From NCBI RefSeq assembly GCF_024281235.1, contig NZ_JAHWXY010000008.1, positions 62,001-126,000 on the forward strand: a stretch of 64,000 nucleotides of DNA. The letters run 5' to 3'. Numbering within the stretch: position 1 is the stretch's first letter; each line of letters begins with the position of its first letter. Below are positions 672 through 20,914 of the stretch, piece after piece. This stretch comes from Shinella daejeonensis. Lineage in GTDB: Bacteria > Pseudomonadota > Alphaproteobacteria > Rhizobiales > Rhizobiaceae. The notes below the pieces were generated by a model. It did no database searches, was not told the origin of the DNA, and was given only the letters and a program-made list of their open reading frames with translations. A program made the position numbers and the translations under genes.

Positions 672-3098
672 ATGAAATTCACGCTCTCCTGGCTGAAGGA
701 TCATCTCGACACCGACGCCACGCTCGACGAGATCTGCGAGCGCCTGACGGCGATCGGCCTCGAAGTGGAGGAGGTCGACGACAAGGCGGCCTTCAGGCCG
801 TTCGTGATCGCCAGGGTCGTCTCGGCCGAACAGCATCCGAATGCCGACAAGCTGCGCGTCCTGATGGTCGATACCGGCAAGGGCGATCCCGTCCAGGTCG
901 TCTGCGGCGCGCCCAACGCGCGTGCCGGCCTCGTCGGCGCGTTCGCGGCGCCCGGCACCTATGTGCCCGGCATCGACGTGACGCTTGCCATCGGCACCAT
1001 TCGCGGCGTCGAGAGCCGCGGCATGATGTGCTCGGAAAAGGAGCTGGAAATCTCCGACGACCACGACGGCATCATCGACCTGCCCGATGACGCGCCGGTC
1101 GGCGAAAGCTATGCCGCCTATGCCGGCCTCGATGATCCGGTCATCGAGATCAACCTGACGCCGAACCGTCCGGACTGCACCAGCATTTTCGGCATCGCCC
1201 GCGATCTTGCGGCCTCCGGCCTCGGCACGCTGAGGACCCCGAAGCCCCCGTCCTTCGAGGTGGAAGGCGAGACGCCGGTCAAGGTAAGGCTCGATCTCGG
1301 CGGCGACGGTCACCTGTGCCCCGGTTTCGCGCTCCGGATCGTGCGTGGCGTGAAGAATGGTCCAAGCCCGCGCTGGATGCAGCAGCGGCTGCTCGCTATT
1401 GGCCTTCGTCCGATCAATGCGCTCGTCGACATCACCAACTACATGACCTTCGACCAGGGCCGTCCGCTGCACGTCTTCGATGCGGCGAAGGTGAAGGGCA
1501 ATCTCACCGTGCGCCGGGCGAAGGATGGCGAGACGGTGCTGGCGCTCGATACCCGCGAATATACGCTCAACCCCTCCAATATCGTCATCGCCGACGACAA
1601 CGGTATCGAATCGATCGGCGGGGTCATGGGCGGCGAGAAGTCCGGCTGCGATGGGAACACCACCGACGTGCTGATCGAATCGGCGCTCTGGGACCCGATG
1701 AACATCGCCCGGACCGGCCGCTCGCACGGCATCATCACCGATGCGCGCTACCGCTTCGAACGCGGTGTCGATCCGGAATACATGGTGCCGGGACTGGAGC
1801 GGGCGACCGAACTGGTGCTGGAGCTTTGCGGCGGCACGCCGGCGGAGGCCGACGTGGTCGGTTACAGGGGATATTCCGCAAGGGCCGTCGATTTTCCCGT
1901 CTCCGAAGTGAAGCGCCTGACGGGTCTCGATGTCTCGTCAGACGAGAGCGTGGATGTCCTCACGCGCCTCGGCTTCACGGTGACGGGATCCGGCGAGCGC
2001 GTCTCCGTCGCCGTTCCCTCCTGGCGTCCGGATATCGACGGCAAGGCGGATCTGGTGGAAGAGGTCATGCGCATCCACGGCGTCGACAAGATCCGCCCGG
2101 CCCCGCTCGAAAGCCATGGCGCGGTGAACGGCCGCATCCTGACGACGCTTCAGATCCGGTCGCGCCTCGCCAGACGCGCGCTCGCCGCGCGCGGCATGCT
2201 GGAAGCTGTCACCTGGTCCTTCATCCCGAAGGCGCAGGCCGAGCTTTTCGGCGGCGGCGCGGCGTCGCTCTCGCTTGCAAACCCGATCGCCGCCGACATG
2301 TCCGACATGCGCCCCTCGCTGTTGCCCGGCCTTTTGTCCGCCGCCCGGCGCAATGCCGACAAGGGTTATGGCGATGTCGCGCTTTTCGAAGTGTCCGGGA
2401 CATATGAGAACGACCGTCCGGAGGGCCAGCGCCGCGTCGCCGGCGGTGTGCGCCGCGGCACCGCTTCGCTTGCCGGTTCCGGCCGCCTCTGGTCCAATGC
2501 GACGAGGGGGGGCGGCAAGCCGGTCGACGTCTATGACGCCAAGGCCGATGCGCTTGCGGTGATCGAGGCCTGCGGCCTGCCGATGGGCAATGTCCAGATC
2601 AAGCCCGGCGCGCCTGCATGGTATCATCCGGGCCGCTCCGGCACGATCCGTCTCGGTCCGAAGATCGTGCTCGGCACCTTCGGCGAGTTTCATCCGAAGG
2701 CGCTTGCCGCGCTCGATGTGTCCGGTGCGCTTTGCGGTTTCGAGATTTTCATCGACGCCATGCCGGAGCCGAAGAAAAAGGCGACCCGCACGAAGCCGGC
2801 GCTCGATCTTTCTCCGTTCCAGGCCGTCCGGCGCGACTTCGCCTTCGTCGTCGACAGCACGGTGGAGGCGGGAGCGATCGTGCGCGCCGCAACCGGTGCC
2901 GACCGCAAGCTGATCACCGCGGTCAACGTCTTCGACGTCTTCGAGGGGGCATCGCTCGGCGAGGGCCGGAAGTCGATCGCGATCGAAGTGGTCATCCAGC
3001 CGACCGACAAGACGCTGACCGACGAGGATTTCGAGGCTCTGACGGCCCGCATCGTGGGGAATGTCGTCAAGTCGACGGGCGGTGTCCTGAGAGCCTGA
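672..3098 (+). CDS. pheT: Phenylalanyl-tRNA synthetase beta chain
   Basis: An 808-residue beta subunit of PheRS, which supplies tRNA binding and editing of misacylated tRNA. The order of parts matches full-length bacterial PheT: an N-terminal EMAP/OB-type tRNA-binding domain (about 40-150, with a [12 protein letters not shown] stretch), the B3/B4 editing region (about 200-380), B5 (about 400-475), the catalytic-like core, and a C-terminal ferredoxin-fold anticodon-binding domain (about 710-808, [12 protein letters not shown]). The ATG at 672 follows AAGGAGAAAACC. It is the second gene of pheST, and a hairpin with a short T-run ends the operon about 45 bases downstream. Confidence 0.98.
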
Positions 3099-3142
3099 CC
3101 GCATCCGCTGAATGCCGGAAAGCGGCCGGCCATGACAGACGC

Positions 3143-3175
3143 GGGCGCGCGACATTGCGCGCCCTTTCTCGTTTC
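3143..3175 (+). terminator. Rho-independent terminator after pheST
   Basis: An 8-bp GC stem (GGGCGCGC / GCGCGCCC) with a 6-base loop is followed by TTTCTCGTTT. It lies between the end of pheT and the convergent aldo/keto reductase gene, the position expected for an operon terminator. The T-run is interrupted, so strength is uncertain. Confidence 0.7.
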
Positions 3176-3190
3176 GAAAAGTTTCCGGGC

Positions 3191-4141
3191 CTATGCCCCG
3201 GCCTCATCGAGCATGGCCATCTGTCCGGCGTCGAGCTTCAGCGTGGCTGCTTTCACGAGGCTGTCGAGCTGGGCGAGACTGGTGGCGCTGGCGATCGGCG
3301 CCGTCACCGCGGGCTTGGCCATCAGCCAGGCAAGGGCGATTTCCGCGGGCTTTGCGCCCGTCTGCGCGCTGACGGCGTCGAGCGCGGCGAGCACCCGCAG
3401 GCCCTTGTCGTCGAGATAGGCGGGGATATCGCCGCCGCGCGCCTTGCCTTCGGCGTCGGCGGCCGCGCGGTATTTTCCGGTGAGGAAACCCTTGGCGAGG
3501 CTGAAATAGGTGATGACGCCCAATCCCTCCTCAAGGCACAGTTCGGCCAGCGGGCCTTCGAAAGCGGCGCGGTCGTAGAGGTTGTATTCCGGCTGGAGCG
3601 CGCCGTAGCGCGGCAACCCCGCGCGGTCGGCGGCCTCGAAGGAGGCGCGAAGCTGGCCGGCGTCGAGATTGGACGCTCCGAAGGCGCGCACCTTGCCGGC
3701 CTTCACCAGATCCGCATGGGCCTCCAGCGTTTCCTCATAAGGGGTCTCAGCATCCGGCCAGTGCGAAAGATAGAGATCGATATGGTCGGTCTGGAGCCGC
3801 TTCAGCGAGTTCTCGACGGCCTCGACGATCCACTCCCGGCGCAGGTCGGTGCGGCCCTGCCCCATGTCCGATCCGACCTTGGTGACGATTACCACCTTGT
3901 CGCGGGATATACCGGACCGCTTCAGCCATTTGCCGATGATCGCCTCGGATTCGCCGCCCTCATGACCGGGCGCCCAGCGGGAATAGACGTCGGCGGTGTC
4001 GATGGCGTTGAAGCCCGCGCCGGCAAAGGCGTCGAGCAGATCGAAGGACGTCTTCTCGTCGGCGGTCCAGCCGAAGACGTTGCCGCCGAAGACGAGGGGG
4101 GCGATGGATAGGCCGGTCTTGCCGAGGGGACGAAGCTGCAT
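3191..4141 (-). CDS. Aldo/keto reductase
   Basis: A 316-residue NAD(P)H-dependent oxidoreductase of the aldo/keto reductase superfamily (TIM barrel, cytoplasm). The start at 4141 is chosen because GGAGG precedes it and the protein then opens with [20 protein letters not shown], the typical AKR N-terminus. Catalytic-tetrad regions are visible: the Asp/Tyr strand ([12 protein letters not shown]), the Lys strand ([10 protein letters not shown]) and the His strand ([11 protein letters not shown]). The C-terminal cofactor-binding part includes [18 protein letters not shown]. It most resembles the potassium-channel beta / YajO-like subgroup. The substrate cannot be read from sequence. It converges with pheT. 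Confidence 0.93.
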
Positions 4142-4306
4142 GGAATACCTCCAGGGTCGGGGATTGAACGGCGATGCGGGGAACATAGGTTGGCGCGGGC
4201 GGGATTGCACGCCGGAAGGGGTGATTTTTTAACCCCGCAGGGCGCGGGCTTGCGAGGAACGGGCCTCATGGCTAGTCTTCCTGCGCATTCGAATGAGGAG
4301 GGCGTC

Positions 4307-5293
4307 ATGCTGCGTTTCGGAATCCTGTCTACCGCCAGAATCGGCCGCGAACTGGTCGTGCCGGCCATTCAGGATGCGGAGAATTGTATCGTGACCGCCG
4401 TCGCGAGCCGGGACGGCGCCAGGGCCCGCGCCATGGCGGATCGGTTTTCCGTGCTGCACGCCTTCGGTTCCTATGAGGAAATGCTCGCGTCCGATACGAT
4501 CGACGCGGTCTATATTCCGCTGCCGACCTCGCAGCATGTCGAATGGTCGATCCGGGCCGCCGACGCCGGCAAGCATGTGCTCTGCGAGAAACCCATCGCC
4601 CTGAAGGCCGACGAGATTTCGCAACTGATCGCCGCGCGCGAGCGCAACGGCGTGTTGATCTCCGAAGCGTTTATGGTCACCTACAGCCCGGTCTGGCACA
4701 AGGTGCGCTCGCTGCTCGCCGAAGGTGCCATCGGCCGCCTGCGCCATGTGCAGGGAGCCTTCACCTATTTCAACCGCGATCCGTCCAACATGCGCAACGT
4801 GCCGGCGCTCGGCGGTGGCGGCCTGCCGGATATCGGCGTCTATCCGACGATCACCACGCGTTTCGCCACTGGTCAGGAGCCGCTGCGCGTGCAGGCGAAT
4901 ACCGATCGTGATGCGGATTTCGGCACGGATATCTATTCCAGCGTCCGCGCCGATTTCGGGAGCTTCGAGCTGTCCTTCTATATTTCCACCCAGCTTGCCC
5001 ACCGGCAGGTCATGGTGTTCCATGGCGACAAGGGTTTCATCGAGGTGAAGTCGCCCTTCAACGCCGACCGCTACGGGGCGGAGGAAATCGAACTTTCCAG
5101 CCAGAACCGCGGCGGATCCCGGGTTTTCCGTTTCCCGGACGCCCGCCAGTACCGGCTTCAGGTCGAAGCTTTCACCCGCGCGGCGCGTGGAGAAAACGCG
5201 GAAGTGGTGACGCTCGAGAACTCCCTCGGCAACCAGAAGCTCATCGATGCGATCTATCGCGCCAGCGAGAAGGACGGCTGGGAGCCGGTCTGA
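4307..5293 (+). CDS. Gfo/Idh/MocA family oxidoreductase
   Basis: A 328-residue NAD(P)-dependent dehydrogenase of the Gfo/Idh/MocA family, which usually acts on sugars, inositols or related polyols. The N-terminal Rossmann fold starts at once ([13 protein letters not shown]), the EKP motif is present (CEKPIAL), and the C-terminal sheet domain carries [12 protein letters not shown] near the substrate site. The ATG at 4307 follows GAGGAGGGCGTC, so the longer upstream frame is not needed. The gene is divergent from the aldo/keto reductase across about 165 bases and stops 5 bases before the convergent glycosyltransferase. No dedicated sugar pathway is nearby, so the substrate is unknown. Confidence 0.93.
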
Positions 5294-9889: not shown

Positions 9890-10678
9890 CTATTCGCCGC
9901 CCTGGGCCGCCCGCTTGTAGGCGGCTTCCAGCCCGTGGAAGATGGCGCGGCCGATATTCGCCTCCATCATCGCGGAAAGCCCGGCGGCGGTGGTGCCGCG
10001 GTATTCCATGAAGAGATCGACGATATCGGCCGGTGTCTGGCGCAGCTGGGCCATCTGGGTCGCCGCCCCGAGAAAGAGCTGGCGCACGGCGATTTCCGCC
10101 GTTTCGGGATCGATGCCCTTTTCGACGGCATGATGGATCATCGTGTCGGCGAAGAGCGCGGGAAAAGCCGCGCCCGAACCGGTGAGCGCGGTGAAATAAT
10201 CGAGATGGCTCTCGTCGTACAGATAGTGGACGCGGCCGGAAGCCGAGAAAAAGGCCTCGATGAACTCCACCTCGTCATCGCGCACATCTTCCGTCGCGCA
10301 CCAGGGCGTGAAGGACAGGCGCTGTTCGGCGCAGGCGTTCGGCATGGCGCGCACGATGCGCACCGCGCCGAAACGATGGGCGATCTCGTCGGCGCTGACG
10401 CCGGCCATGACGGAAAGGACGAGCCTCCCGCGCAGGTCGATATCGAGATCCTCGAGATCGGCAGGCCGGATCGACAGCATCACCACGTCCGAGGCGTCGA
10501 CCAGCGCGCGGTTGTCGGTGGTCGTGTGAACGCCCGGCCAGTCCTCGAATCCGGAGATCGCCCCCGACCGGGAGGAGAGGACGAGGTCCGGCGGCGCGAT
10601 CAGGCCGTCGGCGAGCACCGGCCGGAGGAGCGCCCCGGCAAGCCAGCCGCCGCCGCCGATGACGCCGAGATGGGTCAT
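9890..10678 (-). CDS. Pyrroline-5-carboxylate reductase family protein (ProC paralogue)
   Basis: A 262-residue member of the pyrroline-5-carboxylate reductase family. The N-terminal Rossmann fold reads GVIGGGGWLAGALL, which departs from the usual GxGNM(A/G) pattern. The C-terminal dimerisation domain is well preserved (ALTGSGAAFPALFADTM and EYRGTTAAGLSAM). The ATG at 10678 overlaps the stop of the upstream aminopeptidase as ATGA and lies about 9 bases after GGAGG, implying translational coupling. Coupling to a peptidase suggests amino-acid recycling, but the altered glycine loop means that proline synthesis should not be assumed. Confidence 0.85.
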   Translation of the reverse strand: MTHLGVIGGGGWLAGALLRPVLADGLIAPPDLVLSSRSGAISGFEDWPGVHTTTDNRALVDASDVVMLSIRPADLEDLDIDLRGRLVLSVMAGVSADEIAHRFGAVRIVRAMPNACAEQRLSFTPWCATEDVRDDEVEFIEAFFSASGRVHYLYDESHLDYFTALTGSGAAFPALFADTMIHHAVEKGIDPETAEIAVRQLFLGAATQMAQLRQTPADIVDLFMEYRGTTAAGLSAMMEANIGRAIFHGLEAAYKRAAQGGE

Positions 10679-11928
10679 GCCCATTCGCCTCCGCGCATGA
10701 CCGCAACGCGGCTTCCGTCGGCGTATACGCCATCGACGTCCACCGTGCCGGAGCCGATCATCCAGTCGATGTGGATGAGGCTTTCATTGCCGCCCTGCGC
10801 GCGGATCTGTTCCGGCGAGAGGTTCGCGCCGTCGAGGAAGCACTTGGAATAGCATTGGCCGAGCGCGATGTGGCAGGAGGCGTTCTCATCGAACAGCGTG
10901 TTGTAGAAGAGGATGCCGCTTGCCGAGATCGGCGAGGAGTGCGGCACGAGCGCCACCTCGCCGAGCCGGCGTGCGCCCTCGTCGGTATCGAGAACCTTGG
11001 CGAGCACCGCTTCGCCCCGCGAGGCCTTCGCCTCGACGATGCGGCCGCCCTCGAAGCGCACCTGGATGTCGTCGATCAGCGTCCCCTGATGCGAGAGCGG
11101 CTTGGTGGAGGAGACATGGCCCTCGACGCGCAGGGCATGCGGCGTCGTGAAGACTTCCTCGGTGGGAATATTCGGATTGCAGGTGACGCCGTTCTTCGCC
11201 GTGGAGGCGCCGCCGTGCCATTCGTGGCCATCGGCGAGCCCGACCGTCAGGTCCGTGCCCGGCCCGGTGAAATGCAGAGCGGAAAACCGTCGATCGTTGA
11301 GCCATGCCGAGCGCTTCGCCAGGCCGGCGTTATGGGCGGCCCATGCCGCGACGGGATCCTCCACATCGACGCGCGAGGCGGCGAAGATCGCGTCGGCGAG
11401 CCTGCGGACCGCGACCGCCTCCGGTTCGTTCGGGAACACCTGTTTTGCCCAGGAGGGATTGGGATAGGAGACGATGTTCCAGTTGATGTCGAAATTGGCG
11501 ATCTTCTCCAGCGCCGGCTTGTAGGCGGTGGAATTGGCCTTGTTGGCGCGCGCGACCTTCCCCGGGTCCTCGCCGGAAAGAAGCATCGGATTGTCGCCGG
11601 CGATGGCCAGACGCGCCGCGCCGCCGGCGTAGGCTCTGGCCATGCCTTCGTAGAGCCAGTCCGCCGCCCGGTCGAAGCTCTCGTCCGGCGCATGAGCGTA
11701 GCGCGCCAGCGTCGTCTCCTCGTCAGAATAGAAGGTGCTGACAAGGCCCGCGCCGGCGATATAGGCGTGCCTGGTGATGAGCCGGGCAAGCGGCAGCGCG
11801 GCGACGGGCGCGGTCATCACGAGATCCTGCCCCTTTTGCAGTTGCAGGCCGACCCGTACGGCGACTTCGGCGAGCTTGTCGAGTTTGATGGGGTCGACGG
11901 CGGGAGCGGAGAAAGCGGTTTCGGTCAT
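10675..11928 (-). CDS. Aminopeptidase, M29 family
   Basis: A 417-residue cytoplasmic metallo-aminopeptidase of the M29 (AmpS/PepS/aminopeptidase T) family. Family hallmarks are TDLTVGL, the metal-site region with GVTCNPNIPTEEVFTTPH, and the C-terminal GNESLIHIDWMIGSGTVDVD. Length matches the family (about 410-420). The start at 11928 (MTETAFSAP) is preferred over 11961 because the extra residues look non-coding. The stop overlaps the start of the ProC-like gene by ATGA. Together with the deacylase and aminotransferase upstream it sits in a leftward run of amino-acid-related genes. Confidence 0.94.
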   Translation of the reverse strand: MTETAFSAPAVDPIKLDKLAEVAVRVGLQLQKGQDLVMTAPVAALPLARLITRHAYIAGAGLVSTFYSDEETTLARYAHAPDESFDRAADWLYEGMARAYAGGAARLAIAGDNPMLLSGEDPGKVARANKANSTAYKPALEKIANFDINWNIVSYPNPSWAKQVFPNEPEAVAVRRLADAIFAASRVDVEDPVAAWAAHNAGLAKRSAWLNDRRFSALHFTGPGTDLTVGLADGHEWHGGASTAKNGVTCNPNIPTEEVFTTPHALRVEGHVSSTKPLSHQGTLIDDIQVRFEGGRIVEAKASRGEAVLAKVLDTDEGARRLGEVALVPHSSPISASGILFYNTLFDENASCHIALGQCYSKCFLDGANLSPEQIRAQGGNESLIHIDWMIGSGTVDVDGVYADGSRVAVMRGGEWA

Positions 11929-12010
11929 GGCATGCCTGTCTGTTCGCAAATGGATGGGCAAGCTTAGTGCGCCGGACGGCGGATGAGAAGACGCAATGCG
12001 ATCAGGCGGA

Positions 12011-12484
12011 TCAGGCGACGAGCGAGGCGGCGATGGCCTTCAGCGCCGCCTGCGCGTCTTGCGGCGAAAGCCGGACCTGGAGCCCGCGCTGGCCGCCGTT
12101 GATGTAGACGGCGGCATGGCCAAGGGCTTCTTCCTCGATTGCCGTCGGCACCGGCTTCTTCTGCCCGAAAGGGCTGATGCCGCCGACATGATAGCCGGTG
12201 ATCCGCTCGGCATCGGCGGGTTTCATCATATGCGCGGCTTTTCCCCCGAAGGCGGCGGCGAGTTTCTTCATGCTCACCTCCCGGCTGGAAGGAACGATGA
12301 TGCAGACCGGTTTGCCGTCCACCTCCGCCATCAGCGTCTTCAGGACGCGCGACGCGTCCTCGCCGATCGCGTCGGCCGCCTGGAGACCGATGCGGTCGGC
12401 GCCCGGATCGTAGTCATAGGTGTGGACGGTGAAGGAAAGGCCGGCCTTCACGAGCGCCTGGGTCGCCCGGGTGGTTCTGGACAT
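12011..12484 (-). CDS. ybaK: Cys-tRNA(Pro)/Cys-tRNA(Cys) deacylase, YbaK family
   Basis: A 157-residue trans-editing protein that hydrolyses misacylated tRNA, mainly Cys-tRNA(Pro) in characterised homologues. The YbaK signature GYHVGGISPFGQKK (about residues 96-109) and the Lys-containing VLKTLMAEVDGKP region are intact. Its start lies 12 bases after the stop of the ArsC-like gene, so they are probably co-transcribed. A second, more distant YbaK-domain protein is encoded at 18955-19413. Confidence 0.93.
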   Translation of the reverse strand: MSRTTRATQALVKAGLSFTVHTYDYDPGADRIGLQAADAIGEDASRVLKTLMAEVDGKPVCIIVPSSREVSMKKLAAAFGGKAAHMMKPADAERITGYHVGGISPFGQKKPVPTAIEEEALGHAAVYINGGQRGLQVRLSPQDAQAALKAIAASLVA

Positions 12485-12496
12485 CGCGGTTTCCGC

Positions 12497-12841
12497 TCAG
12501 AAAAGGCTTTCATAGATTTCCGGCTTGAAGCCGGCGGTAAGCGCGCCGTCGCGGTCGAGGATGGGCCGCTTGATCATCGAGGGCTGCGCCTGCATCAGGG
12601 CGATCGCCCTGGCTGCGTCGAGATCCTGCCGTTCCGCCTCGGGCAGCTTGCGGAACGTGGTCCCGGCGCGGTTGAGAACGGTTTCCCAGCCGAGCGCCGC
12701 CACGAAGCGCTCCAGGCTCGTCGCGTCGATACCCTCGGTCTTGTAATCGTGGAACCGATAGGTGATGCCGCGGCCGTCGAGCCAGGCGCGCGCCTTCTTC
12801 ATCGTGTCGCAATTCTTTATGCCGTAGATCGTGACGGTCAT
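12497..12841 (-). CDS. ArsC/Spx-family thioredoxin-fold protein (YffB-like)
   Basis: A 114-residue small cytoplasmic protein of the ArsC/Spx superfamily. It begins MTVTIYGIKNCDTMKKARAW, with a single N-terminal Cys in the position of the ArsC nucleophile, and keeps the RPILD region. YffB-type members are distant from true arsenate reductases and their reaction is not firmly known. The start at 12841 follows GGAGATCTTA; an in-frame ATG 12 bases upstream is less well placed. It lies between the aminotransferase and the YbaK deacylase, 12 bases ahead of the latter. Confidence 0.9.
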   Translation of the reverse strand: MTVTIYGIKNCDTMKKARAWLDGRGITYRFHDYKTEGIDATSLERFVAALGWETVLNRAGTTFRKLPEAERQDLDAARAIALMQAQPSMIKRPILDRDGALTAGFKPEIYESLF

Positions 12842-12888
12842 TAAGATCTCCATGGTTGCAAGTGGGCCTGCCTGAGCCTTCCGAACGT

Positions 12889-14058
12889 TCAGAGGCTGCG
12901 GAACTTCTCCGCGACGGTCTCGACCTCAAGGCTTTTCAGCCCGGCGATATTGATACGGCCAGAGGCGGGCATATAGATCGCGTGTTCATCGCGCAGCCGT
13001 GACACGTCCGCCGCATCGAGCGGCAGCAGCGAGAACATGCCTTCCTGATCGGCGATGGCCTCGAGCGCCGGCCAGCGCTGCGCGAGGCTGGCGGAAAGCC
13101 GCGTGCGGATCGCCGTGATACGCTGCCGCATGCCTTCAAGCTCGGCCATCCAGTCGGCCTTCAGCGTCTCGTCGCCGAGAATGGCGCTGACGATGGCCGA
13201 GCCGTGATCGGGCGGCATGGAATAGTTCACGCGCGCGAAAGCCGCCAGGTTGGTGCGCACGGAAAGCGCTGCGGCGGGCGTCTCGCAGACGGCATAGACG
13301 GCGCCGGTGCGTTCGCGATAGAGCCCGAAGGACTTCGAGCAGGACACCGCCACCAGCGCTTCGGGGACGGATGACAGCAGCATGCGCAGCCCGGCCGCGT
13401 CCTCGTCAAGGCCGCGGCCGAAGCCCTGATAGGCGATGTCAATAAGCGGAATGAGGCCGCGCGCGGCGATGATGTCGCAGACCATGCGCCATTGCGCCGT
13501 CGAAAGGCCGGCTCCGCTCGGATTGTGGCAGCTTGCATGCAGCAGAACGGCCTCGCCGCGCGCAGCCTGCGACAGGGCGTCCGTCATACGCTCGAAAAGC
13601 ACGGTCTGCGAGGGAATGTCGAAGAAGGGATAAGGGGCGAGCGAAAGGCCTGCGGTCTCGAAGATCGCGGCGTGATTGGACCAGCCCGGCAGGCCGAGCC
13701 GCACGGTTCCGGCGCCGGTCTTGGCCAGCAGGTCCGCGGCGATCCGCAGCGCGCCGGAACCGCCGGGCGTCTGGAGCGTGGCAATCGCGCGGCCCCGGCC
13801 TTCGGCCCCCGCCGTCAGTTCCCAGAGACGCTCGAGGAAGACGGCGTCGCCTTCCGGTCCCACATAGGCCTTGGTCGCCTGTGTCTCGACAAGCCGCCGT
13901 TCGGCGGCCTTCACCGCGCGCAGGATCGGCGTCGCGCCCGTCTCGTCGCGATAGACGCCGACGCCGAGATCGACCTTGCCGGGACGCGTATCGGCGCGGA
14001 AGAGCCCGATCAGGGCGAGCAATGGATCATCGGGCTGGCGGGCAAGCGTCTCGAACAT
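12889..14058 (-). CDS. tyrB: Aromatic amino acid aminotransferase (class I, TyrB/AspC type)
   Basis: A 389-residue PLP enzyme that transfers amino groups between aromatic or dicarboxylic amino acids and 2-oxoglutarate. Subgroup I-alpha features are clear: the N-terminal FETLARQPDDPLLALIGLF, LHASCHNPSG, the SCSKSFGLYRERTG motif with the PLP lysine at residue 242, and the C-terminal SGRINIAGL with the carboxylate-binding Arg. Whether it prefers aromatic or aspartate substrates cannot be fixed from sequence. It heads a leftward run with the ArsC-like and YbaK genes. Confidence 0.93.
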   Translation of the reverse strand: MFETLARQPDDPLLALIGLFRADTRPGKVDLGVGVYRDETGATPILRAVKAAERRLVETQATKAYVGPEGDAVFLERLWELTAGAEGRGRAIATLQTPGGSGALRIAADLLAKTGAGTVRLGLPGWSNHAAIFETAGLSLAPYPFFDIPSQTVLFERMTDALSQAARGEAVLLHASCHNPSGAGLSTAQWRMVCDIIAARGLIPLIDIAYQGFGRGLDEDAAGLRMLLSSVPEALVAVSCSKSFGLYRERTGAVYAVCETPAAALSVRTNLAAFARVNYSMPPDHGSAIVSAILGDETLKADWMAELEGMRQRITAIRTRLSASLAQRWPALEAIADQEGMFSLLPLDAADVSRLRDEHAIYMPASGRINIAGLKSLEVETVAEKFRSL

Positions 14059-17384: not shown

Positions 17385-17435
17385 AGCCGCATTTCCGGGC
17401 GCAAAACCGTTTCACACTTTTGCTGGAAATGCTCT
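17385..17435 (-). repeat. Rhizobial-type palindromic intergenic repeat, copy A
   Basis: A 51-base element that matches the one at 24384-24434 in 47 of 51 positions on the opposite strand. It can fold with an outer TTTCC/GGAAA and an inner GCAAAA/TTTTGC stem. It abuts the end of the permease gene, overlapping its TAG stop codon by two bases. Confidence 0.85.
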
Positions 17436-18726
17436 ATTCGGCGAAGAAGGCGAAGCGGATCACGAAGAGGACCGCCACGATCAGCGTTGCCGGATGGATG
17501 GCGCGCCATTGGCCGGTGAAGGCTTTCAGCACGACATAGCTCACGAAGCCGAAGGCCAGTCCGTTGGCGATGGAATAGGTGAACGGCATGGCGAGCGCCG
17601 TCAGCGCCGCCGGCGCCGCTTCCGTCAGTTCCTCCCATTCGACGTCGACCAGTTCGCGGATCATCAGGCAGGCCACATAGAGCAGCGCCGGCGCTGTCGC
17701 ATAGGTCGGCACGGAGCCGGCCAGCGGCGCGATGAACAGGGCGGCGAGAAACAGCACGGCGACGACGAGGGCGGTAAGGCCGGTGCGGCCACCGGCCTGT
17801 ACGCCGGACGCGCTTTCGACATAGGCGGTGGTGCTGCTCGTGCCGAGCATCGAACCGGCGACGATGGCGGTGCTGTCGGCCAGCAGCGCGCGGCCGAGAC
17901 GGTTCGGCTTGCCTTCCTCGATGAGCTTCGCGCGCTTGGCGACGCCGATCAGCGTGCCGGTCGCGTCGAAGACCTCGACGAGCACGAAGACAAGGATGAC
18001 GTGCAGCAGGCCGCCGTGCAGCGCGCCGACGATGTCGAGCTGGAAGAAGGTGGGCAGGATCGAAGGCGGCGCCGAGACCAGGCCCTGAAATTCGCTGACG
18101 CCGAGGAACCAGGACAGCACGGTGACGGTGAGGATGCCGATCAGGATGGAGCCCTTGACCCGCAGCGCATCGAGCACGGCGATGATGAAGAAGCCGAGGA
18201 TCGCCAGGAGCGGCCCCGTCGCGGTGAGTTCACCGAGCCCGACGAGCGTTGCGGGATTGGCCACGACGATGCCGGAGCTTTTCAGCGCGATGATGCCGAG
18301 GAACAGGCCGATACCGGCGGCGATCGCGCTCCGGAGGGAATGCGGGATGCCGTCGATCAGCCAGCGCCGGATGCCGGTGACGGTCAGGATCACGAAGATC
18401 ATGCCCGAGATGAACACCGCGCCCAGCGCCTGCTGCCAGGTGAAGCCCAGTGCGGCGACCACGGTGAAGGCGAAGAAGGCATTGAGTCCCATGCCGGGAG
18501 CCATGGCGATCGGCCAGTTGGCGACGAGCGCCATGATGGCCGAGCCGAGGGCGGCGGCCAGACAGGTCGCGACGAAGACCGCGTCGCGATCCATCCCGGT
18601 CGATGACAGGATATCCGGGTTGACGAAGATGATATAGGACATCGTGAGGAACGTCGTCAGGCCGGCCACCAGTTCGGTGCGGACGGACGTGCGGTGCTCA
18701 CTGAGCTTGAAAAGCCGTTCAAACAT
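17434..18726 (-). CDS. Purine (guanine/hypoxanthine-type) permease, AzgA/NCS2 family
   Basis: A 430-residue inner-membrane permease of the AzgA-like branch of the NCS2 nucleobase transporters, expected to take up guanine, hypoxanthine or adenine by proton symport. It opens MFERLFKLSEHRTSVRTEL and carries the AzgA signatures TFLTMSYIIFVNP and GMGLNAFFAF, then about twelve to fourteen hydrophobic segments and the ESASGVQAGGRTGLTA region. The ATG at 18726 follows GGGGGGAGAAAAC. The 228-base leader upstream is GC-rich with a GGCCGC/GCGGCC hairpin at 18804-18817. I could not match that leader to a known purine riboswitch. Confidence 0.93.
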   Translation of the reverse strand: MFERLFKLSEHRTSVRTELVAGLTTFLTMSYIIFVNPDILSSTGMDRDAVFVATCLAAALGSAIMALVANWPIAMAPGMGLNAFFAFTVVAALGFTWQQALGAVFISGMIFVILTVTGIRRWLIDGIPHSLRSAIAAGIGLFLGIIALKSSGIVVANPATLVGLGELTATGPLLAILGFFIIAVLDALRVKGSILIGILTVTVLSWFLGVSEFQGLVSAPPSILPTFFQLDIVGALHGGLLHVILVFVLVEVFDATGTLIGVAKRAKLIEEGKPNRLGRALLADSTAIVAGSMLGTSSTTAYVESASGVQAGGRTGLTALVVAVLFLAALFIAPLAGSVPTYATAPALLYVACLMIRELVDVEWEELTEAAPAALTALAMPFTYSIANGLAFGFVSYVVLKAFTGQWRAIHPATLIVAVLFVIRFAFFAE

Positions 18727-18954
18727 GTTTTCTCCCCCCAATGGCGAACGCCAGGGGCGTCGCCTTGCATTGACAGCCGGCCGGGCATCTCCTCCGTCCG
18801 TCCGGCCGCAGGCGGCCGCTTCGCCGGGGAAGCCTGCCGTCCGCAAGTCCGGCATAGTGCTTTTTGTCACGCTTTTGCGCCAGACGGCAATTGCCGTGAA
18901 TTTCGACGAAAGTCTTTCAGGAAATGCGCGCCGTCGCGATCGCCGGCCCCGTGC

Positions 18955-19413
18955 CTATTCGCAGACGTCGACCCACTGCGCCGAAACGAGTTCGGCCATG
19001 CGAAGCGGGGCGATGCGCACCGCCGCATTGGTCGCGCCTGCCGCCGGCACCACCTCGGTGAAGGGCCGCAGCGATTCGTCGCAATAGACGGCAAGTGCGG
19101 ACGGCAGGCCGAAGGGGCAGACGCCGCCCGGCGGATGGCTGGTCGCGGCGATCACCGTATCGGCGTCCAGCATGCGCGGCTTGCCGCCGAAACGGTCCTT
19201 GAACTTGCGGTTGCTGAGCCTCGCGGTTCCGCTGGTCACGAGCAGCAGGACGTCTTCGCCGACCCTGAGGCAGATGGTCTTGGCGATCTGTTCGGGCGCA
19301 ACCGAATGGGCGGCAGCCGCCAGTGCGACGGTGGCGGAGCTTTCCTCCGTGACCAGAACGGGGATATCGGGAGCATGCTGCTGGAAAAAGGCGCGGACGG
19401 ATTCAAGGGACAT
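18955..19413 (-). CDS. YbaK/ProX-domain aminoacyl-tRNA deacylase-like protein
   Basis: A 152-residue YbaK-fold protein of the INS superfamily, whose members edit misacylated tRNA. The conserved Lys is in the QIAKTICLRVG strand, and the loop reads SHPPGGVCPFGLP, the pattern of the PrdX/YeaK-like branch rather than the GGISPFGQKK of true YbaK. The substrate amino acid is not known. It is the last ordinary gene before the short tRNA-bounded insert; its start lies 225 bases from the distal copy of the tRNA end. Confidence 0.88.
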   Translation of the reverse strand: MSLESVRAFFQQHAPDIPVLVTEESSATVALAAAAHSVAPEQIAKTICLRVGEDVLLLVTSGTARLSNRKFKDRFGGKPRMLDADTVIAATSHPPGGVCPFGLPSALAVYCDESLRPFTEVVPAAGATNAAVRIAPLRMAELVSAQWVDVCE

Positions 19414-19743
19414 GGATATCGAAAGCTTGCGAGGGTTCGGCGGCTGGAACGTCTGGTGGTCACGGATAAGGGCCGATTCGGCCGGCCGTCATGAAAGCAC
19501 AAAAACAGTGCCCGCGCCGCCATCATTTGCGCCCATGCGCCACCAGAACCCATCTCACAGGACGCACCATCCCGCCGGGGACTGTGATCGACTATGAAAA
19601 AGGGATGAAAAGCGAACGCAATCAATGCGTTCTGAATGGAATGGTGCCCAGGAGAGGACTCCTGATGGTTGCGTATCATATTGAATATATTGAACCATCT
19701 TAATGTCTGAATGTATATGGCCCGTGCCTTGACCCGTGCTGCG
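19414..19743. other. Intergenic stretch holding the distal tRNA-end copy
   Basis: About 330 bases without a convincing gene. It holds a small perfect hairpin (GAACGCA-5-TGCGTTC, 19614-19632), the duplicated tRNA-Leu end (19638-19661), an AT-rich patch (about 19675-19720), and an 18-mer (19722-19739) related to one at the other end of the insert. Short open frames here have no ribosome site or recognisable content. Confidence 0.7.
19638..19661. repeat. Distal attachment-site copy (duplicated tRNA-Leu 3' end)
   Basis: 24 bases that match 20826-20849 at 23 positions. The match covers the 3' end of tRNA-Leu (end of the T-loop, acceptor stem and CCA) plus five bases beyond CCA, and stops inside the T-arm. 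This is the footprint left by tyrosine-recombinase elements that insert into tRNA genes. Confidence 0.85.
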
Positions 19744-20487
19744 TCAAATCAACGATTGAGAGAAGTTGCCGATGCGTTGAACCTTATGTGATTTCGATAC
19801 CCATGCCGATCCTGATTTGACGATCTCGACCCTGATGCTGCCCGTCCGCGCCGACCCTGCTGCTTCGATGGCTTCCGAGGGGATTTGTAACAACTCGACA
19901 TGCAGAGGCTTCGTTTCGATGAGGCCCACCACCGTGCATTTCTCATGTGCGACCGGGGCAGAAAACACGTAGCTCCCGTCGTCTTCCTTGAGACCGTAGC
20001 TCACATGGAAGCGGTGCTGCTTCCCCTTGATGATCGAATAGAAATGAACGGCATCGCGGTTCGGGTCGTCTTCCTCGGGGAAGGCGCATTGCCAGCCTGC
20101 CATCTGGACGAAGCCCATGACCACGTTGACGCTCGCGTCAGCAGCCGCGTTGAAGTGCTTCTTCTCGGCAAAGTCGAGTTCGGGAATATCGCCGTTCGCC
20201 AGCCATGCGCTGTCCACGCCGAGCACCTTGGCCAGCATGAGCAGCTTCTGGTTCCGGGGGCGGCCCCGGCCGTGATACCAGCGGTATGCTGTCTGAAGAC
20301 TCACGTTGATGCCGTTCATCTTCATCTGCTGCATTATCCAGGTCGATCGACCCTTGTCAGCCGGCATGTCTCTGATCTTGTCGCATGCGATTTTCATTCG
20401 TCTGGCGAATGCGGGATCAACATCCGGCTCCCTCGCCAGATCGATATCTTCGTCCGTTAGGTCCTTTGCGTCTCGTGCGGCGATCAT
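19744..20487 (-). CDS. Phage-repressor-like HTH protein
   Basis: A 247-residue protein of unknown target. An N-terminal acidic segment (LTDEDIDLAREPDVDPAFA) leads to a CI/XRE-type helix-turn-helix at about residues 55-95 (NVSLQTAYRWYHGRGRPRNQ, then KVLGVDSAWLANGD). The C-terminal 140 residues are not recognisable; I see no LexA-type Ser/Lys protease motif. The ATG at 20487 follows AGGGAATTTGACT; a TTG two codons upstream is an alternative. It is the only gene of the tRNA-bounded insert, with lower-GC codon use than its neighbours, so horizontal origin is likely. Confidence 0.75.
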   Translation of the reverse strand: MIAARDAKDLTDEDIDLAREPDVDPAFARRMKIACDKIRDMPADKGRSTWIMQQMKMNGINVSLQTAYRWYHGRGRPRNQKLLMLAKVLGVDSAWLANGDIPELDFAEKKHFNAAADASVNVVMGFVQMAGWQCAFPEEDDPNRDAVHFYSIIKGKQHRFHVSYGLKEDDGSYVFSAPVAHEKCTVVGLIETKPLHVELLQIPSEAIEAAGSARTGSIRVEIVKSGSAWVSKSHKVQRIGNFSQSLI

Positions 20488-20829
20488 AGTCAAATTCCCT
20501 GAGCTGTCCTATTGTGCTGCAGGTAGGGCCGCGCGCGGAGGAAGTAAAATTAAAAGTTAGAAATAACTTTGAGAGTTACTTGTATCATTAACGAATAGCT
20601 AAGGGATTTCGCTGTGTTTTGCGTCAGATCGGGTACGGTTCACAAACGGTCGGGTATTTTGTGAGCCGTACCTTGGACCGTACATCGGCTATGACTGCAA
20701 GCCAAATGCACTGAAACAGATAGGCACGGACTAAAACAACGTCTTCGCGGAAATCCTTTTGTTTTGAATTCCCTATGTCCAATTTTCGGGACGCAGGGTG
20801 GTGTTTTAAACACCTTGAAACAAAAGGAA
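20488..20829. other. AT-rich intergenic region of the mini-element
   Basis: About 340 bases between the HTH gene and tRNA-Leu. It contains the likely promoter region of the HTH gene, a strong inverted repeat at 20632-20672, a small palindrome at 20800-20814 (GGTGTTT-T-AAACACC) just past the tRNA end, and no convincing open reading frame. Confidence 0.7.
20632..20672. repeat. Inverted repeat, possible regulator or recombinase site
   Basis: 15-base arms (GGTACGGTTCACAAA and TTTGTGAGCCGTACC) match at 14 of 15 positions around an 11-base spacer. A third GTACGGT-type half site follows at once (20677-20683, read on the minus strand). The HTH gene starts 145 bases away. It could be an operator or a recombinase arm site. 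Confidence 0.6.
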
Positions 20830-20849
20830 TGGTGCCCAGAAGAGGACTC
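20826..20849. repeat. Attachment-site copy inside tRNA-Leu
   Basis: 24 bases that overlap the 3' end of the intact tRNA-Leu gene and extend 4 bases past its CCA. They match 19638-19661 with one substitution. The tRNA remains complete on this side, as expected for the gene-proximal junction. Confidence 0.8.
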
Positions 20850-20914
20850 GAACCTCCACGCCTCGCGGCACAGGTACCTGAAACCTGCGCGTCTACCAAT
20901 TCCGCCATCTGGGC
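20830..20914 (-). tRNA. tRNA-Leu (anticodon CAG)
   Basis: An 85-base class II tRNA with encoded CCA. The acceptor stem pairs GCCCAGA with TCTGGGC, the D-arm contains GGTAGACGC, the anticodon stem CAGGT/ACCTG encloses the loop TTCAGGT (anticodon CAG, reading CTG leucine codons), a long variable arm follows, and the T-loop is TTCGAGT. Its 3' end is duplicated at 19638-19661, marking it as an integration target. Confidence 0.97.

Follow-up and report, generated by a model that had tools for sequence, protein, structure and literature searches.

Decayed prophages and integrase-less elements bounded by attachment sites (CIMEs) are known kinds of element. In PMC5704250, CIMEs are defined as derivatives of ICEs or IMEs. 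Cryptic or grounded prophages, some of which confer immunity, are described in PMC6379469 and PMC6356513; the prophage of the latter measures 51.8 kb, and a lipoprotein gene together with a noncoding region is linked to the immunity investigated there. For phages of the RcD cluster, PMC8601537 reports that apparent lysogens are resistant to superinfection and lists an immunity repressor among the lysogeny genes.

The element described here resembles a CIME in that both attachment sites (attL and attR) are kept and the recombination genes are lost. It differs from a CIME in that it would derive from a prophage instead of an ICE or IME and in that its sole recognised gene is a phage repressor. 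With cryptic and grounded prophages it would share the status of a defective prophage and a possible protective role, which unlike that of the 51.8-kb prophage would depend on a lone repressor. The repressor type is common to temperate prophages of the Casjensviridae (G094; RHph_X2_30, RcPescado). The G094 prophage additionally shares with the element the end position and orientation of the repressor and the duplication of the tRNA 3′ end, and arm-like sites are seen at either side of both. Compared with these prophages of 57–70 kb, the element has a size of 1.2 kb and lacks the integrase, terminase, structural, polymerase and helicase genes. Comparison of sequences makes it probable that it is the remnant of a Casjensviridae-type (Chi-like) temperate prophage, which has no integrase and retains its immunity gene alone between the attachment sites. 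This degree of confidence holds for the origin and is far lower for the present role. To our knowledge, a form consisting of attachment ends and an immunity repressor alone, found twice independently, is new, and a tRNA-bounded lone phage repressor was not described in the titles and abstract beginnings of the matches listed from open PubMed Central.

The window, i.e. the whole 64-kb stretch of DNA analysed, contains one tRNA gene, tRNA-Leu(CAG), the end of which recurs at a distance of 1188 bp (Table 1). This repeat with one mismatch in 24 bases had been noticed in the first-pass annotation and was confirmed by alignment and by a genome-wide scan; when extended to 27 nt, 25 positions are identical. 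The earlier division into 19 tRNA bases and five downstream bases had to be corrected to 20 and four. Further remarks of the same annotation, that the DNA between the repeats is AT-richer and holds a lone HTH gene and no integrase, proved correct: the GC content is 52.4% in the element and 66.0% in the window, and the longest ORF of the element comprises 249 aa without an internal stop. The four other ORFs in or reaching into the element gave no Pfam match at an E value of 0.01, and no integrase was seen among them. The integrase gene that characterises a tyrosine-recombinase genomic island is missing from the inside of this element, and neither terminase nor portal, polymerase or helicase genes lie between the repeats. 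Starting from the tRNA gene, the element is composed of 336 bp, the repressor gene in the orientation of the tRNA, 82 bp and the repeat.

Table 1. Features of the element and its borders (positions in the window; a point marks a feature given without strand)
Feature	Position	Strand	Basis or remark
Hairpin resembling a terminator, immediately beyond the distal copy; possibly the former tRNA-Leu terminator	19614..19632	-	one in the region, against a chance expectation of 1.7; weak
Distal attachment-site copy, 23/24 identical	19638..19661	-	the 20-mer has no other second copy genome-wide (≤2 mismatches)
Two direct arm-like sites, distal side, 12-bp period	19718..19739	-	putative role
Repressor ORF, TTG at 20493, in-frame ATG at 20487; CI-type HTH and PD-(D/E)XK-fold C-terminal domain	19744..20493	-	PHROG_2967, tblastn, AlphaFold model, fold matches
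Stretch expected to hold the deletion junction (integrase through helicase lost)	20494..20632	-	suggested by comparison with G094
Palindrome ahead of the repressor gene (arms of 18 nt with 78% complementarity); candidate operator	20542..20581	.	putative role
Inverted arm-like site, tRNA side	20633..20642	+	matching inverted sites in G094 and G016
Two direct integrase-arm-like sites, tRNA side, 12-bp period	20662..20683	-	arrangement as in the G094 prophage; putative role
Attachment-site copy on the tRNA side (the 20 3′-terminal nt of the tRNA and 4 nt)	20826..20849	-	repeat match
tRNA-Leu(CAG), target gene, intact	20830..20914	-	ARAGORN

The weak hairpin beyond the distal copy is located where a displaced tRNA terminator would be expected. 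Within the distal copy, the single mismatch and its adjoining bases form a perfect palindrome (CAGGAG-TCCT-CTCCTG), which lies in the likely crossover region. The idea that the element had imported a variant tRNA-Leu body was rejected; the identity of the two copies stops in the T-loop, and the part of the tRNA further towards its 5′ end is host DNA.

Sequence similarity identifies the HTH gene as a homologue of the repressor of Casjensviridae (Chi-like) temperate siphophages and not as random cargo. Its product matches PHROG_2967 (E 5e-17), and tblastn revealed homologues in 43 phage records (Casjensviridae, Chi-like); among the 20 of them that were listed, the match extends over 79–97% of the query with 31–39% identity. 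Eight phage records were opened, in seven of which the homologue lies downstream of a helicase gene and in five of which it adjoins an annotated excisionase or integrase. The AlphaFold model of the 249-aa protein (pLDDT 91) predicts that a CI-type HTH is joined to a PD-(D/E)XK nuclease fold. In this repressor type the catalytic residues of the PD-(D/E)XK domain are apparently mostly lost; one member, the repressor of G218 (L108), keeps a D...EVK pattern. PHROG_2967 was too general to serve as a family query, since 157 of 385 genomes gave a match, as did 7 of 14 controls, and 29 of the 30 matches given loci (all except that of G000, the genome containing the window) end by profile position 121 of 225.

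The position of the gene can be compared with an intact prophage of about 66 kb in G094, a genome of the same order. There, a stretch of 174 bp with arm-like sites separates tRNA-Phe(GAA), encoded on the minus strand, from the start codon of the integrase; the terminase, the portal and other structural genes come next and, further on, the polymerase, helicase and repressor genes, all of these on the same strand. Past the repressor there are arm-like sites again and, at 73 bp, an exact 24-nt repeat of the tRNA 3′ end. Polarity and end position of the repressor in the window element are the same as in this prophage. In the record of RHph_X2_30, repressor and integrase are neighbours separated by a gap of about 310 bp, which fits an attachment site in this gap, so that integration would part the two genes. 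Virus contigs from IMG/VR gave support that is not uniform. An integrase match was obtained for 12 of the 16 contigs tested: integrase and repressor are at opposite ends, like in an integrated prophage, in three (G821, G823, G831), close to each other in six (G825, G826, G827, G830, G832, G834) and about 25 kb apart in the other three (G829, G833, G836). Contigs of metagenomes can represent unintegrated phages or have arbitrary ends; the end position of the repressor is not universal. When the two ends of five IMG/VR contigs were compared, the longest common word did not exceed 13 nt; the G821 and G823 records end at genes and contain no attachment sites. In seven records of phages or phage-plasmids, the stretches that were fetched lack the tRNA-Leu(CAG) end (best match with 6 mismatches in 20), and no intact prophage with tRNA-Leu(CAG) specificity was found among the elements examined. 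A tblastn search of contig C36, on which the window lies, with the 140 ORFs of two Casjensviridae prophages gave, besides the repressor, matches at two further places (67 aa, E 1.5e-8; 203 aa, E 1e-15), which are at distances of about 26 and 85 kb from it.

Comparison of the arm-like sites supports, without proving, that both sets of integrase arm sites remain in the window element. The motif GYACGGNYCA, which was defined from the sites themselves after they had been seen, has five matches in 64 kb, all of them within the element, with 2.05 expected per window, and five matches were reached in 6 of 100 shuffles. For the window alone, the statistics of the sites are modest: the arms of the two sides match at 16 of 22 positions, a value reached by 8 of 300 shuffles; the distal tandem was reached by 7 of 300 and the tRNA-side tandem by 108 of 300. 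The corresponding numbers of 300 shuffles each (cross-side match, distal tandem, tRNA-side tandem) are 0, 0 and 11 for G094 and 10, 7 and 2 for G218. The arm-like sites of G094 have the layout and the 12-bp period of those in the window but a different motif, TGACGGTAYGG, and the inverted site overlaps the start codon of the integrase. In G016, a genome of the genus, two direct sites and an inverted one precede an integrase gene with yet another motif, the inverted one being located just before the start (by eye). An inverted repeat at 20632–20672 (fold z −3.25 for 20600–20700) was dropped as a separate feature, as it includes two of the arm-like sites.

According to the proposed origin, a Casjensviridae-type phage would have integrated into the 3′ end of tRNA-Leu(CAG) by means of its own tyrosine integrase. 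An internal deletion that began near the start of the integrase gene and took in the whole helicase gene would then have left the attachment sites and the repressor together with its upstream region. Because the inverted site overlaps the integrase start in G094, the deletion would be expected to extend from this site to the upstream region of the repressor. At present, the repressor may bind the operators of incoming related phages and thereby block their lytic genes. Such immunity is plausible by analogy and the most likely present role; RcPescado, which has this repressor type, belongs to the RcD cluster. Lacking an integrase, the element would stay in place unless a related integrase acted in trans, and movement of this kind is possible. 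The first-pass annotation had left the choice between the last trace of an island and a passive element. Site-specific recombination stands, and the last trace is the better supported of the two; what has changed is the parent, now a probable Casjensviridae-type prophage, and the nature of the gene, which would be the phage's own repressor and not acquired cargo.

A search of 397 genomes of the order with the repressor and then with a 13-row profile yielded six genomes, including G000, that carry a homologue at the cut-offs used. Those of G094 and G167 are in prophages, and the contig of G167 stops about 100 bp past the repressor. In G218, which belongs to another family, tRNA-Gln(TTG) is followed by 176 bp, a lone repressor gene in the orientation of the tRNA, 126 bp and a repeat of the tRNA end (15/15), the copies being 1019 bp apart. 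Short repeated motifs flank the gene on both sides, and the repressor is 24% identical to that of the window (alignment A2). As judged from this layout, G218 is an independent occurrence of the same collapsed form at another tRNA and in another family. Two genus-mates of G218 (G395, G194) have kept tRNA-Gln and the neighbouring gene and contain one copy of the 15-mer in the fetched 5–6 kb; the repressor search gave no match in them, and other DNA intervenes, hence these are not clean empty sites.

The last two genomes, G175 and G066 from one genus, contain relics with only two prophage genes among the ORFs compared: that of the repressor and a divergent prim-pol gene, which shares 50% identity with its counterpart in the G167 prophage. 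They are located at 9923–13370 (L105, G175) and 910–4348 (L107, G066) and adjoin a panC-like gene (by eye). The 20-kb stretches around them contain no tRNA, and no repeat was recognised there as an attachment site. When alignment A2 was applied to 385 genomes drawn from the class, among them G000 and no fewer than four further members of the order, G000 alone was positive. The single repressor query found no relative in viral_contigs and genome_contigs, and a query with alignment A3 found 68 loci in the former and two in the latter.

Prophage relics are common. A serious possibility, if somewhat short of an even one, is that the element has the same origin but no role in immunity, being a neutral relic which is still being lost and in which the repressor happens to be left. 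The relics of G175 and G066 represent another remnant of the same phage group and agree with such ordinary decay. Against it, two independent reductions have arrived at the same minimal set with an intact ORF; this argument is weak, since both were found through the repressor. Indeed, all relic cases were found by searching with the repressor, and from cases ascertained in this way it is not to be inferred that the repressor may be retained in preference to other phage genes. A prophage remnant like the one proposed here would show prophage decay at a minimal end point, with only the immunity gene and both attachment sites left, at two tRNAs and in two families. If the repressor is functional, such elements would be tiny phage-defence loci, and gene-centred prophage finders are expected to miss them because one HTH gene is the whole cargo. 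The question whether bacteria keep the repressor while discarding the rest of a prophage becomes testable.

The genus was surveyed by scanning 21 genomes for the 20-mer with up to two mismatches; a reversed control pattern gave no match in any of the 21. In G000 the 20-mer occurs twice, exactly at the two repeat places. The first-pass annotation had proposed to look among relatives for a single copy of the tRNA end and for larger elements at the same site, and both exist: 19 of the 20 other genomes have one copy, the repressor homologue is absent from all 20, integrase-bearing elements use this tRNA end in G016 and G002, and a truncated integrase is found there in G018. The second copy in G002 has two mismatches and bounds a 15.1-kb island at tRNA-Leu(CAG) encoding a 623-aa DUF6538-type integrase (Pfam-confirmed). 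The sequence of G005 aligns with G002 on both sides of the island, meeting within the tRNA end, and thus represents a clean empty site. Together, island and empty site indicate that in this genus the tRNA-Leu(CAG) end functions as an attachment site. In G016, a 419-aa integrase encoded beside tRNA-Leu(CAG) is 41–43% identical to those of RHph_X2_30, G094 and G167, and G018 has a 290-aa truncated relative of it without the catalytic domain. The surroundings of the G016 integrase gene (L037, G016:C30), which is of the Casjensviridae type, comprise an iron-uptake-like cluster and are not prophage-like (by eye). In 14 of the 20 relatives the tRNA 3′ end is followed within 60 bp by a GCCCGG-type hairpin; a different flank containing a T-run is present in G019 and G008, and the flanks of G016, G018, G002 and G004 are of other kinds (all by eye).

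A broader proposal would place the window element and the G218 case in a recurring class of about 1 kb, composed of two attachment sites with arms and an immunity repressor, which would arise repeatedly from Casjensviridae prophages, be kept for immunity and be spread by the integrases of the phages it excludes; we consider this unlikely. A slightly lower probability is assigned to a related reading of the same origin, in which the window element is a non-autonomous mini-element under selection, its arms and repressor being moved in trans by helper Casjensviridae phages while it protects the cell. The two cores and the two sets of arm sites appear intact, and no stop interrupts the ORF; moreover, the independent G218 case has a similar size and layout at another tRNA, and the same tRNA-Leu(CAG) is accompanied by a Casjensviridae-type integrase in G016 and by a truncated relative in G018. 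Nevertheless, the element is present in a single copy in G000 and in none of 20 relatives, and no circular form or packaging is known for it. The arm motif of the G016 integrase is a different one (by eye). Of the 13 PF00589 matches of G000, seven are listed. A single one of these seven lies on the contig of the window, at a distance of about 77 kb (C36:159716), and only the region on C4 has a full-length relative of Casjensviridae-type integrases, a distant one (30–33%). The G016 integrase as mover of the window element was rejected, as its arm-like sites differ in sequence (by eye).

The left host flank of the window element is not collinear in the relatives and represents a rearrangement breakpoint, for which reason a matched empty site cannot be demonstrated for this element. 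About a dozen breakpoints in about 140 kb separate C36 from G005 and G002, which agree with each other. The block 17434–19415, with a gene for a tRNA-editing domain (YbaK-like, PF04073), and the tRNA block starting at 20830 are not neighbours in G005 and G002. That the repeats stem from a genome rearrangement or an assembly join, with the repressor brought in by chance, is very improbable: the junction between these blocks is indeed one of the breakpoints mentioned, but the repeat ends exactly at the tRNA 3′ end and encloses a prophage-end gene in the correct polarity, and the design recurs in G218.

Regarding the target gene itself, the body of tRNA-Leu(CAG) occurs as two alleles in the 21 genomes of the genus, which differ in the anticodon stem and the variable arm. 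In a post hoc comparison uncorrected for phylogeny (Fisher p 0.004), four of the five genomes whose site is occupied or altered carried the rarer allele (G000, G016, G018 and G004, not G002), as did one of the 16 others (G011).
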